DNA from: a bacterium
GTDB taxonomy: Bacteria > Bacteroidota > Bacteroidia > B-17B0 > Aurantibacillaceae
Reading direction: 5' to 3'
Assembly (NCBI GenBank): GCA_029945625.1
Contig: JAQSCW010000055.1
Span: forward strand, 124,001-188,000
Length of the DNA stretch: 64,000 nucleotides
Position 1 is the first letter of the stretch; every line of letters begins with the position of its first letter. A program made the translations under genes and the position numbers. Below the pieces are notes generated by a model. The model saw only the letters and a program-made list of their open reading frames with translations, searched no databases and was not told the origin of the DNA. Shown one piece after another: positions 20,019 to 26,518 of the stretch.

Positions 20019-21548
20019 TTATTCCCACTCAATGGTAGCAGGAGGTTTGGAACTAATGTCGTACACCACCCTGTTTACACCTTTTACTTTATTGATAATT
20101 TCGTTACTCATTTTGGCGAGAAATTCATAAGGGAGATGGCACCAGTCGGCAGTCATGCCGTCGGTACTGCTCACCGCTCTTAATGCTACTGCGTTTTCGT
20201 AGGTGCGTTCATCGCCCATCACTCCCACGCTTTGAACGGGAAGGAATATGGCGCCTGCCTGCCACACTTCTTTGTACAAGTCGTGTTTTTTAAGACCCTC
20301 TATAAAGATATGATCTACTTCTTGAATGATGCGAATTTTTTCTTCGGTAATTTCTCCAAGAATTCGAATGGCCAATCCCGGTCCGGGAAATGGATGGCGA
20401 TTAAGAATATTCATGTCCAGGCCCAGTTCTTTACCCACTCGACGCACTTCGTCTTTAAACAAACTACGGAGAGGCTCCACCACGCTCAATTTCATGTATT
20501 CGGGCAAGCCCCCCACATTGTGATGCGATTTGATGGTAGCTGAAGGACCTTTTACGCTCAAGCTTTCAATCACGTCGGGATAGATAGTGCCCTGTGCCAA
20601 CCAACGTGCATTTTTTACCAATTGTGATTCTGCGTCAAATACATCGATGAATACTTTTCCAATAGCCTTGCGTTTTTTTTCGGGATCAGAAACTCCGTTT
20701 AATTCGGAATAAAATTTTATTTTTGCGTCTACTCCTTTTACGTTCAAACCCATGTGTTTATAGGAGTCGAGAACAGTTTCAAATTCATTTTTGCGAAGCA
20801 ACCCATTGTCCACAAAAATACAATACAGGTTTTTTCCAATGGCTTTATGAAGTAACATGGCGGCCACACTGCTGTCGACACCACCACTCAAGCCAAGAAT
20901 CACTTTATCTGAACCAATTTTTGTTTTGAGTTCATTGATGGTGGTTTCCACGAAGGATGCCGGGGTCCAGTCGCCTTTGCATTGGCATACACCAAACACA
21001 AAGTTTTTTAGGATGCGGGAACCATGGGTAGTATGAAATACTTCGGGGTGAAACTGGATGCCATGCGTTTCTTCACCTTCAATTTTATAAGCGGCCACTT
21101 TCACGTCATGTGTGCTGGCGGTGATTTTATAATTGGCAGGAATAGTGAGAATGGTATCGGCATGACTCATCCATACCTGAGAGTCGTTGGGAACATCTTC
21201 AAATAATTTTGCTTTGTGATCTATGATCTCGAGGTGCGCGCGACCATATTCGCGGGAATTGGATTTACCTACTTCACCACCAAAAAAATGTGCCAAAAAT
21301 TGGGCACCGTAACACACCCCCAGGAGCGGAAGTTTACCTTTAATTTGAGACAAGTCAGGTTTAAGCGGATTTTCTTCGCGCACGCTATGCGGACTCCCTG
21401 ATAAAATGACCCCTTTGATGGCGGGCGTAAGGCTTGGAATCTTATTAAAGGGGTGAATCTCGCAGTACACATTTAATTCGCGTAAACGGCGTGCAATCAG
21501 TTGAGTATATTGGGATCCGAAATCAAGAATGAGAATTTGCTCTTGCAT
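20019..21548 (-). CDS. guaA: GMP synthase (glutamine-hydrolysing)
   Basis: From ATG 21548 the protein has 509 aa. The N-terminal class I amidotransferase has the catalytic Cys in LLGVCYGAQ and the His-Glu pair in [10 protein letters not shown]. The ATP-pyrophosphatase domain has [12 protein letters not shown], and the C-terminal dimerisation domain ends KPPATIEWE as usual. It converts XMP to GMP using glutamine. The three codons upstream of ATG 21548 lie over a candidate promoter element, so they are excluded. Confidence 0.97.
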
Positions 21549-21554
21549 AGAGGA

Positions 21555-21562
21555 CAAAAATA
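21555..21562 (-). promoter_or_regulatory. Candidate -7 element for guaA
   Basis: On the minus strand this reads TATTTTTG, matching TAnnTTTG. Transcription would begin at about the A of the guaA ATG (21548), so the mRNA may be leaderless. Confidence 0.45.
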
Positions 21563-21633
21563 CAATTTAATTTGCGGTGAAAAAGCCATAATCGCGGCGG
21601 CTTAGTGATTTTTAAGAAAAATGAATTGTTTTT

Positions 21634-21662
21634 TTGTTGCAGTCAAAATAATCGTATATTTG
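21634..21662 (+). promoter_or_regulatory. Promoter of the tRNA-Pro region
   Basis: TATATTTG (21655-21662) is a perfect -7 element. A T-rich TTG (21634-21636) sits 18 bp upstream as a -33 candidate. Transcription would begin near 21669, inside a perfect 16-bp palindrome (21667-21682), and run through both tRNA-like repeats into the intact tRNA. Confidence 0.6.
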
Positions 21663-21666
21663 CATT

Positions 21667-21682
21667 CTCAAAAATTTTTGAG
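21667..21682. repeat. Perfect 16-bp palindrome at the predicted transcription start
   Basis: CTCAAAAATTTTTGAG reads the same on both strands. It directly follows the -7 element of the tRNA-region promoter and could be an operator or form a 5' hairpin. Confidence 0.6.
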
Positions 21683-21685
21683 ATA

Positions 21686-21925
21686 CGCTCGGGGTGTAGC
21701 GTAGCCCGGTATCGCGTCCCGACTTGCGGTCGGGAAGGTCGGCAGTTCGGTAGGTGTGAGGAAATGAGAAAGTTCTTTTATAAAATTTTGAATAAAAAGT
21801 AATACCGCTCGGGGTGTAGCGTAGCCCGGTATCGCGTCCCGACTTGCGGTCGGGAAGGTCGGCAGTTCGGTAGGTGTGAGGAAATGAGAAAGTTCTTTTA
21901 TAAAATTTTGAATAAAAAGTAATAC
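21686..21925 (+). repeat. Two 120-bp tandem repeats carrying tRNA-Pro-like halves
   Basis: Copies at 21686-21805 and 21806-21925 appear identical. Each begins with the first 27 nt of the adjacent tRNA-Pro (acceptor 5' strand and whole D arm). A different anticodon arm follows, with stem TCCCGA/TCGGGA and 7-nt loop CTTGCGG. Part of the T-arm 5' side (GGCAGTTCG) is kept, but there is no 3' acceptor strand. The remaining 50 nt or so of each unit is AT-rich. They cannot fold as normal tRNAs. They are either degenerate duplications or tRNA-like RNAs made from the same promoter. Confidence 0.8.
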
Positions 21926-21929
21926 CGCT

Positions 21930-22003
21930 CGGGGTGTAGCGTAGCCCGGTATCGCGCCTGCTTTGGGAGCAGGAGGTCGTCAGTTCGAATCTGGCCACCC
22001 CGA
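21930..22003 (+). tRNA. tRNA-Pro (anticodon TGG)
   Basis: This is a complete 74-nt cloverleaf. Acceptor strands CGGGGTG (21930-21936) and CACCCCG (21996-22002) pair perfectly, with discriminator A22003. The D arm is AGCGTAGCCCGGTATCGC, the anticodon arm CCTGC-TTTGGGA-GCAGG gives anticodon TGG, and the T arm is GTCAG-TTCGAAT-CTGGC. CCA is not encoded. It is the third and only intact member of a tandem series with 120-bp period. Confidence 0.96.
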
Positions 22004-22009
22004 CAAACA

Positions 22010-22043
22010 GCAAAAACCTTTCACGATGTGAAGGGTTTTTTTG
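22010..22043 (+). terminator. Terminator of the tRNA-Pro transcript
   Basis: AAACCTTTCAC and GTGAAGGGTTT form an 11-bp stem (one G-T pair) around the loop GAT, followed by a run of seven or more T. Confidence 0.75.
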
Positions 22044-22189
22044 TTTTTGAGACGAACCAAAGCTCGCTTTGGAGAGAAAGAGCAAAAAGCCCTTTTTCGC
22101 AAAGAAAAAAAAGGCTTTTACCACTTGCAGCGCCCCCCTCTTTTGAGCAGCTTCAGCTAATATGGCATCTCCAATAAAAACTTAAAACC

Positions 22190-22456: not shown

Positions 22457-25400
22457 TCACATCTTACTTTTTTCAACCCACTTTCTGGCATTTACAAAAG
22501 CCTCTAACCAGGGCGACACCTCGTCCTTTTGACCTCTTTCGGGGTAATTGGCCCAGTTCCATGGAAAAGTAGAGCGTTCAATATGTGGCATCATCACCAG
22601 ATGTCTTCCTGTTGCATCGCACATCATGGCGGTATTAAAGTCAGAACCGTTAGGATTTGCCGGATATTCTGAGTAGCCATATTTAGCCACAATATTGTAT
22701 TTCTCTTCTGCGTAAGGCAATTTGAATTTACCTTCTCCGTGTGAGATCCAAACGCCCAAGGTAGCTCCTTCTAATGAAGAAAGCATCACGGAATTGTTTT
22801 TTTGAATTTTCACCGAGGTGAAAGCACTTTCGTGTTTACCGGAAGTATTGTGATGCAATTTACCGTGTACCTCGTGCTCAGGGTTGATGAATTCCAATTC
22901 CATTAACAACTGACACCCGTTACAAATCCCAACAGAAAGCGTGTCTTTTCGTTGAAAGAATTTTTTCAAGGCTGTGTTTGCTTTTTCGTTGTATAAAAAA
23001 GCACCGGCCCATCCTTTGGCTGAACCTAAAACGTCCGAATTAGAAAAACCGCCAACCGCGCCTATAAATTGAATCTCTTCCAATGTTTCTCTTCCCGAAA
23101 TAAGATCAGTCATATGCACGTCTTTCACATCAAAGCCCGCCAAGTACATGGCGTTCGCCATTTCCCGCTCCGAGTTACTGCCTTTTTCACGAATGATCGC
23201 TGCCTTTGGCCTTGCGACACCTTTTGCAATAAGCGGTAATTTACCATCAAAATGAAGAGGGAAAACAAATTGTAAAGCTTGCTTTTTATAATTGTTATAG
23301 CGCGCTTGCGCCATTCCATTTTTCGATTGATGAGAATCCAAAAGGAAAGAAGTTTTATACCAGGTGTCTCTGATCTTCTCCACATCAAAAGTAAATTCAT
23401 CTGAATTGTTCTTGATCTTTATGGAATTGCCTTCCGCCACTGTGCCAATTTTGAAAAGCTCGAGGTGGTGTTTTTCAAATTCTACTTCCACCTGTGCATC
23501 GGCCTGAAATACCACGGCAATGTTTTCGTTGAAAAAGGCCTTCACCGTATCTGTTTCACCTAAAGAAGTAAGGTCATAACTGGCACCCAAATTCACATCA
23601 GCAAAACACATTTCCAATAAAGTGGTAATGAGGCCGCCGCTTCCTACATCGTGACCGGCTTTTATTTTGCGTGCTTTGATTAAATCTTGCAATACATTAA
23701 ATGCCGTTTTAAAATACGCAGCGTTTTTAATGGTTGGAACTTCGGTCCCAATTTTACTTAACACCTGAGCCAAAGAAGAACCACCTAATTTGAAAGTGTC
23801 TTGCGATAGATTTAAATAGTAAATATTACCGCCTCCGCGTTTTAAAACAGGCTCAACTACTTTGGTAATGTTTGAACAATTTCCGGCCGCAGAAATAATC
23901 ACTGTTCCCGGTGCAATCACCTCGTCGTGCGGGTATTTTTGTTTCATGGAAAGGGAATCTTTTCCGGTGGGAATGTTAATTCCTAATTCTATCGCAAAAT
24001 CAGAACAGCCCTTTACTGCTTCGTACAACCGTGCGTCTTCCCCTTCATTTTTGCAAGGCCACATCCAGTTGGCCGACAATGAAACGGAATGTAAACCCTC
24101 CTTTAACGGGGCCCACACAATATTTGATAAGGCTTCCCCAATGGCATTGCGAGAGCCTGCAACAGGATCCACAAGTGCCGCAATGGGCGAATGTCCAATA
24201 CTGGTTGCAATCCCTTCTTTGCCTTTGTAATCTAAAGCCATCACGCCCACATTGTTTAATGGCAATTGCAGCGGACCCACGCATTGTTGTTTTGCCACAC
24301 GTCCGCCCACGCAGCGGTCAACTTTATTTGTTAACCAGTCTTTACAGGCCACAGCTTCTAATTGCAAGACGTCCTGCAAATAGCTTGAAATTTTTGTGAC
24401 AGAATAATTTAGTTCCGAATAATTTGTTTTCACATGAATGTCTGTCATGATTGTTTTTGGTGAACTTCCAAAAAAATCTGCAAGGGCATAATCCATGGGT
24501 GTTGATCCTGTGGTTTTTGAGCGAAAAGTAAAACGGTGATCGTTGGTGACTTCTCCTACTTGATACATGGGTGAACGCTCCCGGTCGGCAATGCGTTGAA
24601 GCGTGTCCAGGTCTTTGTTGCCAATCACTAATCCCATTCGTTCTTGAGATTCGTTTCCAATAATTTCTTTTGCCGAAAGAGTTGGATCACCTACCGGTAA
24701 TTTATCCAGATCTATTAGGCCTCCTGTGGCTTCAACTAATTCCGACAAACAATTTAAATGGCCGCCCGCACCATGATCGTGAATAGAAACAATGGGATTG
24801 TGATCACTTTCCACTAATCCGCGAATGGCATTGGCAGCACGTTTTTGCATTTCGGGATTGGAACGTTGAATGGCGTTTAATTCAATGCCTGAACCAAAAG
24901 CCCCTGTATCGGCCGATGACACCGCAGCACCACCCATGCCGATGCGGTAATTTTCTCCACCCAAAATCACAATTTGATCACCTTCAGTCGGTAGTTTTTT
25001 AATGGCCTGATTTAATTTTCCATAGCCCACACCGCCGGCTTGCATAATTACTTTATCGTAACCAATCTTGCGTTTGTTTTCTTCATGTTCAAACGTGAGC
25101 ACCGAGCCGGTGATAAGAGGTTGACCGAATTTATTTCCAAAATCAGACGCGCCGTTAGAGGCTTTAATCAGAATATCCATGGGCGTTTGGTAGAGCCAGG
25201 GTCTTTCTGTCATGCCTTGTTCCCATACGCGGTTATTTTCTAATCGCGAATAGGAAGTCATGTAAACAGCAGTTCCCGCCAGAGGCAAAGATCCTTGTCC
25301 GCCCGCCAAACGATCGCGGATCTCTCCACCAGAGCCGGTGGCAGCGCCATTAAAAGGTTCTACGGTGGTGGGGAAATTATGGGTTTCAGCTTTTAATGAA

Positions 25401-26125
25401 AGTACCGATTCAAATTCTTTTTCTTCATAATAATCAGGTTTATCGGCACTCTTCGGGGCAAATTGCACGAGCTTCGGACCTTTTACAAATGCCACATTAT
25501 CTTTATACGCCGAAACAATATCGTTGGGATTGGTCTCAGACGTTTTTTTAATTAATTTAAATAAGGAACTTGGTTTTGTTTCGCCATCAATCACAAAAGT
25601 GCCATTAAATATTTTGTGTCTGCAGTGTTCTGAGTTGGCTTGCGAAAAGGCGAAGATCTCCGAATCAGTTAATTTTCTTCCCAATTTACGGGATAAATTA
25701 TCTAAATATTCTACCTCTTCCGCACTGAGTGCCAAACCTTCTGATTTGTTGTAGGCCGCAATATCGGTGATATCCAGAATGGGTTCTGGACTTACATTTA
25801 TGGTATAAATATCTTGATTTAAGGCGCTGTATTTTTGAGAAAGCATGGGATCGAAAGAGCTGAAATCTGCAGCAACTTTTTCAAACTGTTCAATTCTCAA
25901 AATTCCTGAAACACCCATGTTTTGCGTTATTTCAACAGCATTGGTGCTCCAGGGAGTGATCATTGCCGCACGTGGGCCAATAAAAAAGTTGGCTAGTTGT
26001 ACTTGTTTTAGTTCATGGGCCTCTCCAAAAAGCCAATTTAATTTTAAGATGTCTTCTGAATTTAAGTCGGTTTTTGTTTGAACTGCAAAAACAGAATTGG
26101 ATTGGTTTCCAAAGAAATATATCAT
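22457..26125 (-). CDS. purL: Phosphoribosylformylglycinamidine synthase (single-chain FGAR amidotransferase)
   Basis: From ATG 26125 the protein has 1222 aa; the 12 codons upstream lack family similarity. This is the large single-chain PurL: a linker and AIR synthase-like halves with SEHCRHKIF, KAETHNFPTTVEPFNGAATG and DHGAGGHLNCLSELVE. The C-terminal glutamine amidotransferase has nucleophile Cys in GICNGCQLL and His/Glu in MMPHIERSTFPW. It makes FGAM from FGAR, ATP and glutamine in purine synthesis. The single-chain form, not PurL/PurQ/PurS, is usual in Bacteroidota and Proteobacteria. Confidence 0.96.
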   Translation of the reverse strand: MIYFFGNQSNSVFAVQTKTDLNSEDILKLNWLFGEAHELKQVQLANFFIGPRAAMITPWSTNAVEITQNMGVSGILRIEQFEKVAADFSSFDPMLSQKYSALNQDIYTINVSPEPILDITDIAAYNKSEGLALSAEEVEYLDNLSRKLGRKLTDSEIFAFSQANSEHCRHKIFNGTFVIDGETKPSSLFKLIKKTSETNPNDIVSAYKDNVAFVKGPKLVQFAPKSADKPDYYEEKEFESVLSLKAETHNFPTTVEPFNGAATGSGGEIRDRLAGGQGSLPLAGTAVYMTSYSRLENNRVWEQGMTERPWLYQTPMDILIKASNGASDFGNKFGQPLITGSVLTFEHEENKRKIGYDKVIMQAGGVGYGKLNQAIKKLPTEGDQIVILGGENYRIGMGGAAVSSADTGAFGSGIELNAIQRSNPEMQKRAANAIRGLVESDHNPIVSIHDHGAGGHLNCLSELVEATGGLIDLDKLPVGDPTLSAKEIIGNESQERMGLVIGNKDLDTLQRIADRERSPMYQVGEVTNDHRFTFRSKTTGSTPMDYALADFFGSSPKTIMTDIHVKTNYSELNYSVTKISSYLQDVLQLEAVACKDWLTNKVDRCVGGRVAKQQCVGPLQLPLNNVGVMALDYKGKEGIATSIGHSPIAALVDPVAGSRNAIGEALSNIVWAPLKEGLHSVSLSANWMWPCKNEGEDARLYEAVKGCSDFAIELGINIPTGKDSLSMKQKYPHDEVIAPGTVIISAAGNCSNITKVVEPVLKRGGGNIYYLNLSQDTFKLGGSSLAQVLSKIGTEVPTIKNAAYFKTAFNVLQDLIKARKIKAGHDVGSGGLITTLLEMCFADVNLGASYDLTSLGETDTVKAFFNENIAVVFQADAQVEVEFEKHHLELFKIGTVAEGNSIKIKNNSDEFTFDVEKIRDTWYKTSFLLDSHQSKNGMAQARYNNYKKQALQFVFPLHFDGKLPLIAKGVARPKAAIIREKGSNSEREMANAMYLAGFDVKDVHMTDLISGRETLEEIQFIGAVGGFSNSDVLGSAKGWAGAFLYNEKANTALKKFFQRKDTLSVGICNGCQLLMELEFINPEHEVHGKLHHNTSGKHESAFTSVKIQKNNSVMLSSLEGATLGVWISHGEGKFKLPYAEEKYNIVAKYGYSEYPANPNGSDFNTAMMCDATGRHLVMMPHIERSTFPWNWANYPERGQKDEVSPWLEAFVNARKWVEKSKM

Positions 26126-26518
26126 AGTTTGTACGGGATAATATGCGTGATTTAAGACCACAAAATTAATTTAATTCAAACAATATGTCTTAATAAACTT
26201 ATTCGAACTTTCGACACAGCGTCCTAAACTTTTAAGATTTGTTAAATAAACCCGATTTCGGGCCATTATCACCTGGTTTGCAGGATACAGAAGCTCCTCA
26301 GACCTGTTTTTTGACTCAAAATACGTTCGGAAAGTCTTGATTCAGTAAGCTAGTGGAAGCTGATACCCAAATAAAGGGAGTAGGTCTTAGGAATCTTTTT
26401 TTGTTAAACCTGGCACTTATCTTTGCACCTTCTTAAGGTGAACTCATAATTTTTTGAGCGTTTTATTTGTATTTACTTATATTTAGTCTTCGCTAAACCT
26501 TAAAAAAGCAGAATCGAC
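26126..26518. other. Intergenic region between divergent purL and the acyltransferase gene
   Basis: No gene is seen. A plus-strand -7 match, TATCTTTG (26418-26425), would start transcription near 26432 with a leader of about 87 nt for the acyltransferase gene. Within that leader CTCA (26441-26444) and TGAG (26455-26458) form a weak hairpin. I found no riboswitch-like structure on the purL side. Confidence 0.45.

Follow-up and report, generated by a model that had tools for sequence, protein, structure and literature searches.

The intact tRNA-Pro gene described here is preceded by two shortened and altered copies of itself, which raises the question of what such copies are and how they arose. 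They lie in a window of 64,000 nucleotides, the whole stretch of DNA analysed, from a genome of Bacteroidia type (55 contigs, completeness estimate 100%). The tRNA-Pro(TGG) gene (21930-22004, plus strand) is recognized by ARAGORN and by the Rfam tRNA model (64.2 bits); it is the sole tRNA of the window and the single tRNA gene between guaA (20019-21557) and purL (22457-26161), two minus-strand genes, named from sequence, that lie on opposite sides of the array. Upstream of it are two ORF-less plus-strand units of 120 bp, unit 1 (21686-21805) and unit 2 (21806-21925), with 100% identity across 120 nt. The first 31 nt of the unit are found again at 21926-21956, giving a period of exactly 120 in register with the tRNA. 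The initial annotation, which had described an exact 120-bp series with the intact tRNA-Pro(TGG) as its third unit, is thus borne out. Chance cannot account for two identical 120-bp copies; they are identical because of a recent tandem duplication, as had been suggested.

Each unit is a disarmed 5' copy of tRNA-Pro. In unit 1, the acceptor 5' strand and D arm (21690-21716) equal the first 27 nt of the tRNA (21930-21956), and the place of the anticodon arm is occupied by the palindrome TCCCGA-CTTGCGG-TCGGGA (21717-21735; 21837-21855 in unit 2), that is, the 6-bp stem and 7-nt loop first reported. The accompanying statement that the 3' half is lost went too far: the sequence after the hairpin, AGGTCGGCAGTTCG (21736-21749 and 21856-21869), is identical to AGGTCGTCAGTTCG of tRNA-Pro at 13 of 14 positions, so the variable loop, the T-stem 5' strand and the start of the T loop remain. 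Only the T-arm 3' strand and the acceptor 3' strand are missing. Neither unit was recognized as a tRNA by ARAGORN or Rfam over the window, and the covariance-model search proposed earlier sees tRNA-Pro alone. An Ala(TGC) anticodon reading of the loop CTTGCGG was dropped, as the arm is one among many palindromes.

The remainder of unit 1 is an AT-rich linker of ~60 nt (21750-21809), the position held by a GIY-YIG ORF at locus L169 and on contig C43 of the same genome. BLAST against 395 genomes of the class found no relative of the linker, and the 89 non-tRNA bases returned just AT-rich chance matches and hairpin matches. The exact unit core had zero matches in genome-contig and viral-contig collections, and plasmids yielded no relative of it. 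The stretch MRKFFYKILNKK in the linker was considered as a C-terminal ORF remnant; it is very short. A minus-strand open frame of 170 aa (21612-22124) spans the array with a translation period of 40 residues; it stays open only because the 120-bp period is divisible by three, and it is certainly no gene. On the other side of tRNA-Pro, alignment with relatives and the locus of G017 point to what is probably a decayed 3' unit of a type ancestral to the genus (22041-22180, plus strand), whose remnant GAGCAGCTTCAGCTAATATGGCATCTCC (22145-22172) matches AGATCAGCGCAAGCTAATCTGGCCACCCC of G017.

The earlier claim of a promoter before the array holds for a motif of Bacteroidetes type (21633-21662, plus strand), consisting of TTTG at 21633-21636 and TATATTTG at 21655-21662; the latter fits TAnnTTTG, and the same motif stands immediately 5' of tRNA-Pro in relatives. 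No E. coli-type promoter was detected upstream of the array. The terminator said to follow the third unit was found as well, as an intrinsic terminator at 22012-22040 (plus strand). The units and tRNA-Pro probably share one transcript, from which the units would leave as the RNase P 5' leader, without host function. A boxA-like GTTCTTT is present in the linkers of only a few independent arrays. A boxA role is not claimed, given the few independent arrays and the absence of the motif from proximal rRNA leaders of G001.

The likely shared transcript leads to the proposal that the units are functional tRNA-like RNAs, kept because they act as decoys or tune how tRNA-Pro matures, for instance through base pairing to the 3' acceptor strand of the tRNA. 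In an equilibrium fold of the full transcript, base pairs do form between the acceptor strand of unit 1 and the 3' strand of the tRNA (P about 0.95), and hairpin pairing is kept at other loci as the sequence varies. Against this, the fold of the unit is no more stable than that of shuffled sequence (z 0.12), Rfam assigns the unit to no RNA family, the linker shows no conservation, the tRNA takes up its native cloverleaf when folded with the last unit alone, and palindrome pairing is equally expected at the DNA level. Upstream units are also missing at the tRNA-Pro of the 29 relatives inspected. The capture of the tRNA 3' strand by the acceptor strand of unit 1 is a lead rather than evidence, since the outcome in the cell would depend on RNase P and on folding during transcription. 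The sponge, decoy or regulator suggested in the initial annotation is accordingly not supported, the units show no sign of function, and we give this explanation only a small chance.

Comparison with relatives, likewise proposed at the outset, had a mixed outcome: the upstream units are absent from tRNA-Pro in the relatives inspected, and their design recurs at other loci. At all 29 tRNA-Pro loci inspected in relatives, the promoter and a short leader run directly into the tRNA; the units of the window at tRNA-Pro are thus lineage-specific. Many congeners carry an old 3' unit downstream of tRNA-Pro, in which the T loop is replaced by AGATCAGCG..AGCTAATCT, and in G017 this unit is in tandem. 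A search with a 93-nt query reached other families, at loci where tandem copies show the same arm swap. The pattern CGTCCCG-N3-15-CGGGAAGGTCG occurred at 24 sites in 12 of 395 genomes of the class, mostly in tandem, and a reversed control pattern at 3 single sites. For example, Parapedobacter indicus (L207) has five tandem, ORF-less 92-bp units at tRNA-Pro, a different family of the class (L088) has at least five units at tRNA-Pro, and L155, L166, L169 and L132 share the architecture. Among the matches listed, cases in tRNA context came from named genomes of Bacteroidota, Desulfobacteraceae, Armatimonadota and WOR-1, and further ones from Gracilibacteria, Patescibacteria, Ignavibacteriota, Neomarinimicrobiota and others. 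The host tRNAs of disarmed copies include Pro, Val, Ala, Arg, Ser, Met, Asn, Asp, Leu, Ile and Thr.

Across these loci, units upstream of the tRNA retain its 5' part and those downstream its 3' part, and hairpin pairing is retained while the sequence varies. Among the matches listed, and leaving aside the five pairs forced by the search pattern, inner pairs were Watson-Crick in 124 of 142 cells in tRNA context versus 40 of 109 elsewhere, under a loose classifier of tRNA context that admits some Actinomycetota rows representing genuine tRNA-Glu genes or coding chance. The non-Watson-Crick cells comprised 4 G-T and 1 A-C, too few to tell constraint on RNA from constraint on DNA. Seventeen independent inserts between colinear tRNA segments, gathered without requiring palindromes, all fell within a tRNA loop or on its border (D loop 9, anticodon loop 2, T loop 6), and a perfect stem of 6 bp or more is present in 14 of the 17. 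Such inserts include CTTCG-[TCCCGACTCGGGTCGGGA]-TGAAG in a tRNA-Ala (L278) and TCCCGATAGCTATCGGGA, which sits in both the D loop and the T loop at L305.

Many of these loci contain a small ORF that Pfam assigns to the GIY-YIG nucleases (E 1e-12 to 1e-17). In 21 genomes of relatives, 29 of 70 small GIY-YIG ORFs lay within 500 bp of an intact tRNA, for a chance expectation of about 1.3%, estimated from about 40 tRNAs in 4 Mb, and all 29 were on the strand of the tRNA; large GIY-YIG proteins (UvrC-sized or exonuclease fusions) were never found within that distance (0 of 5). Extra partial copies of the adjacent tRNA surrounded 24 of the 29 ORFs; in a rough control with a smaller window, 7 of 29 tRNAs of the window's own genome had any short extra match, one of the seven being the nuclease-bearing Arg(CCT) locus. 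A profile built from ten tRNA-associated nucleases matched 88 of 149 sampled genomes of the class, and the association was repeated at held-out loci (23 of 28 within 500 bp of a tRNA, 23 of 23 on the same strand and 21 of 23 with partial copies). Conversely, at named loci among the matches listed, a nuclease lay within 1.5 kb of 15 of 44 tRNA-context hairpins versus 2 of 76 others (p=4e-6), and both of these exceptions turn out to be beside tRNA fragments or tRNAs.

In a phylogenetic tree, 27 of 28 tRNA-adjacent domains fall in one clade (support 98/95), together with eight other domains, four of which are at contig ends. tRNA identity is clustered within the clade, with 13 changes versus 20.1 after shuffling (lowest 17). 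The proteins are bare catalytic domains of ~80-95 aa in which residues Y5, Y16, G18, R28, H32 and E64 are invariant across 10 relatives. The active site thus appears intact at the sequence level, and activity on tRNA-gene DNA is predicted. The structure model (pLDDT 91) has Slx1, UPF0213 and I-TevI as its nearest folds (foldseek against Slx1: prob 1.0, TMq 0.65; UPF0213 1zg2: E=5e-5). Slx1, which cleaves branched DNA, possesses an additional domain and is partnered by Slx4; the homing enzymes include I-TevI and SegB. The tRNA-associated proteins resemble UPF0213/YhbQ and Slx1 in fold and sequence and differ from them in their genomic setting at tRNA genes.

Several further features of nuclease loci were noted. 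Contig C9 of G142 carries ten near-identical GIY-YIG genes in series (906046-910392, period 457 bp) and four more at 624689-626071 (period 379 bp). The tRNA-Pro(TGG) genes beside a GIY-YIG gene (L215, L025, L160) have the anticodon stem ..TGG/CCA.., and the window and most element-free congeners have ..TGC/GCA..; the former is possibly a cut-resistant allele, in a comparison that does not control for lineage. In G008, G009, G012 and G013 (L365, L359, L366 and L352), tRNA-Arg(CCT) has the alternative anticodon stem CGAGCG, with the 3' strand CGCT in three of the four, and the split tRNA-Arg(CCT) copy flanking the gene in G012 retains the common GAAG/CTTT stem.

No GIY-YIG gene or recognizable remnant was found near tRNA-Pro in the window (contig C55, 145655-146043), and the array thus lacks the tRNA-clade nuclease gene that marks the autonomous form. 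The same genome has three GIY-YIG genes elsewhere, at tRNA-Ser and tRNA-Arg. On C43 (2229-3012, L238), two identical 412-bp units bearing the gene precede tRNA-Ser(TGA), and the tRNA-Ser copies have palindromes in the D loop and the anticodon loop; the nuclease at tRNA-Ser had no match among phage records. On C50, the gene lies beside tRNA-Arg(CCT). A further small GIY-YIG gene on C47 (70329-70547, L237) sits in a dense array of varied palindromes of the CTTCGATAAACTCAGGCACC type; there is no tRNA there, and this nuclease falls outside the tRNA clade.

Units with and without the nuclease gene coexist in other genomes. In the single-contig congener G001, tRNA-Val has ten ORF-less 89-bp units (GGGAGCTTAGCTCAGCTGGTTCAGAGCA-TCCCGACTAACGTCGGGA-GGGTCACTG...) on its upstream side and, downstream, two GIY-YIG genes accompanied by disarmed tRNA-Val copies. 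At L215, one window-like 5' unit is succeeded by the intact tRNA-Pro, a terminator, a GIY-YIG gene and a 3' remnant, and at L169 an ORF-bearing unit is followed by two ORF-less units and then by the intact tRNA-Met. Together with the array of P. indicus, these cases indicate that tandem 5' units without an ORF belong to the normal condition of such loci. An element may also bring its own tRNA, as hinted by the sequences at one locus: in G009, the inner tRNA-Ser(GGA) is divergent, and the split flanking copy is closer to all 20 native orthologues (mean 0.86 vs 0.77).

On this evidence, the units of the window are likely to be ORF-less, non-autonomous copies of a selfish element that dwells in tRNA genes, combines a GIY-YIG nuclease with palindromes and would act in the manner of SegB. 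A full element consists of partial host-tRNA copies flanking the intact gene on one side or on both, with an arm or loop converted to a palindrome, and of a small GIY-YIG nuclease gene on the strand of the tRNA. The window has partial copies of the adjacent tRNA on the same strand within a few hundred bp, and in them an arm is replaced by a perfect palindrome, by the same rule as in relatives. Because it has no nuclease gene or remnant at tRNA-Pro and its linker matches nothing, the array is classed as an ORF-less derivative by analogy, and we infer its descent from an ORF-bearing unit on the same basis. The "failed duplications" of the initial annotation came near the truth and were incomplete, in that the copies belong to a recurrent class linked to GIY-YIG nuclease genes.

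Under the proposed mechanism, the nuclease would cut tRNA-gene DNA, or hairpins extruded from such DNA, and the break would be repaired from a neighbouring or incoming copy, with the tRNA-like halves serving as homology arms. Each repair event could add or multiply tandem units. Palindrome-bearing copies, having no native arm, would escape both cutting and becoming faulty tRNAs, and ORF-less units would persist and multiply passively. Cleavage and homing or mobility are thus predicted steps, and the precise role given to the palindrome is a guess. The intact tRNAs beside a nuclease retain their native arms, and the model leaves their escape from cutting unexplained. Since only 15 of the 44 named disarmed loci among the matches listed have a nearby nuclease, palindrome-marked copies could also arise without one.

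The latter point is shared by the view that the copies are passive debris, namely partial tandem tRNA duplications later hit by genomic REP-like palindromes, with the nuclease uninvolved. Palindromes of the TCCCG..CGGGA type are indeed also found away from tRNA genes, several loci are without a nuclease, and tRNA-Met, Leu, Asn and Arg(CCG) of the genome that holds the window have short 3'-end remnants only. Such a process would nevertheless leave unexplained why one nuclease clade resides at tRNA genes, always on the same strand, why tRNA identity tracks the nuclease tree and why a single locus can hold units with the ORF in alternation with units without it, and we regard it as rather improbable. 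The remnants themselves are copies of 17-18 nt that follow tRNA-Met, Leu(TAG), Asn and Arg(CCG) (L038, L042, L047), with hairpins before the copies; they are probably decayed 3' units.

tRNA genes are classic integrase landing sites, and the copies could be conceived as att-site scars of a tyrosine-integrase island in tRNA-Pro. Integration is known to duplicate parts of tRNA genes (PMC9897764). The copies here, however, repeat the 5' part of the tRNA in tandem at a spacing of 120 bp and have an exchanged anticodon arm, there is no integrase, gene or island-sized DNA between them, and no plasmid relative was found; this origin is disfavoured as very unlikely. An error in repeat number would be conceivable in a 55-contig draft with two identical 120-bp units near short-read length, but comparable arrays are present in further assemblies, one of them the single-contig G001. 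An assembly artefact, which would bring only the copy number at this locus into question, is hardly credible.

The closest known counterpart of the proposed tRNA-gene element is SegB, a free-standing GIY-YIG homing endonuclease of T-even phages, which was reported to cut inside tRNA genes, to occur alongside tRNAs and to drive, through recombination, the amplification in tandem of the tRNA together with segB (PMC13096335). The GIY-YIG gene beside tRNA genes, the co-localization and the tandem copies agree. Unlike in the phages, the genes described here are on bacterial chromosomes, encode the catalytic domain alone (~80-95 aa), accompany one tRNA per element and are associated with palindrome-armed partial tRNA copies and ORF-less arrays, and their cutting is predicted. 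REPtrons, composed of a RAYT transposase and REP palindromes, offer another parallel, and CGTC-tagged REPs are said to be without a dedicated transposase (PMC3733652). Both systems share with the present loci a small nuclease or transposase gene with short palindromes, or non-autonomous palindromes, but the enzyme is GIY-YIG here and HUH in REPtrons, and the palindromes here are inside partial tRNA copies. A CGTC tag is present at one end of the unit palindrome (CGTC-CCGAC..GTCGG); it may be coincidental, as its CG is part of the retained tRNA sequence, 5' of the replaced arm. The rules of CGTC-REPs, by which the stem opens with two complementary A/T positions and a CCA-like tail is present, do not hold for the unit, whose stem starts C-G, C-G and which has no CCA tail.

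Rickettsia palindromic elements and other intragenic REPs are alike in placing palindromes inside genes with pairing kept, yet these are mostly in protein genes, whereas tRNA copies and a linked nuclease are involved here. In the E. coli tyrT terminal repeats, which give rtT RNA, the repeats hold the tRNA 3' end. These, too, are tandem repeats that carry part of the neighbouring tRNA and share its transcript, but the repeats of the window hold the tRNA 5' part and a new hairpin. Identity with rtT (RF00391) was rejected, as there was no match to the Rfam RtT model.

A selfish element at bacterial tRNA genes thus appears to be both widespread and undescribed; no description of an association between GIY-YIG genes, palindromes and tRNA copies was found in the open-access literature, a search that is weak as evidence of absence. 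More tentatively, and with somewhat less than even confidence, we suggest a distinct, widespread tRNA-homing class in which a minimal GIY-YIG enzyme would act on hairpin-forming DNA, palindromes in the D, anticodon or T loops would mark immune or junction copies, the element could bring a replacement tRNA and split the native one, and ORF-less arrays would be non-autonomous. Carriers include culturable strains, e.g., P. indicus. If the proposal is true, many annotated "pseudo-tRNAs" and tRNA fragments would be explained, at least some orphan palindromes would gain a candidate enzyme, and the idea of nuclease-driven amplification of tRNA loci, put forward for SegB, would be extended from phages to bacterial chromosomes.
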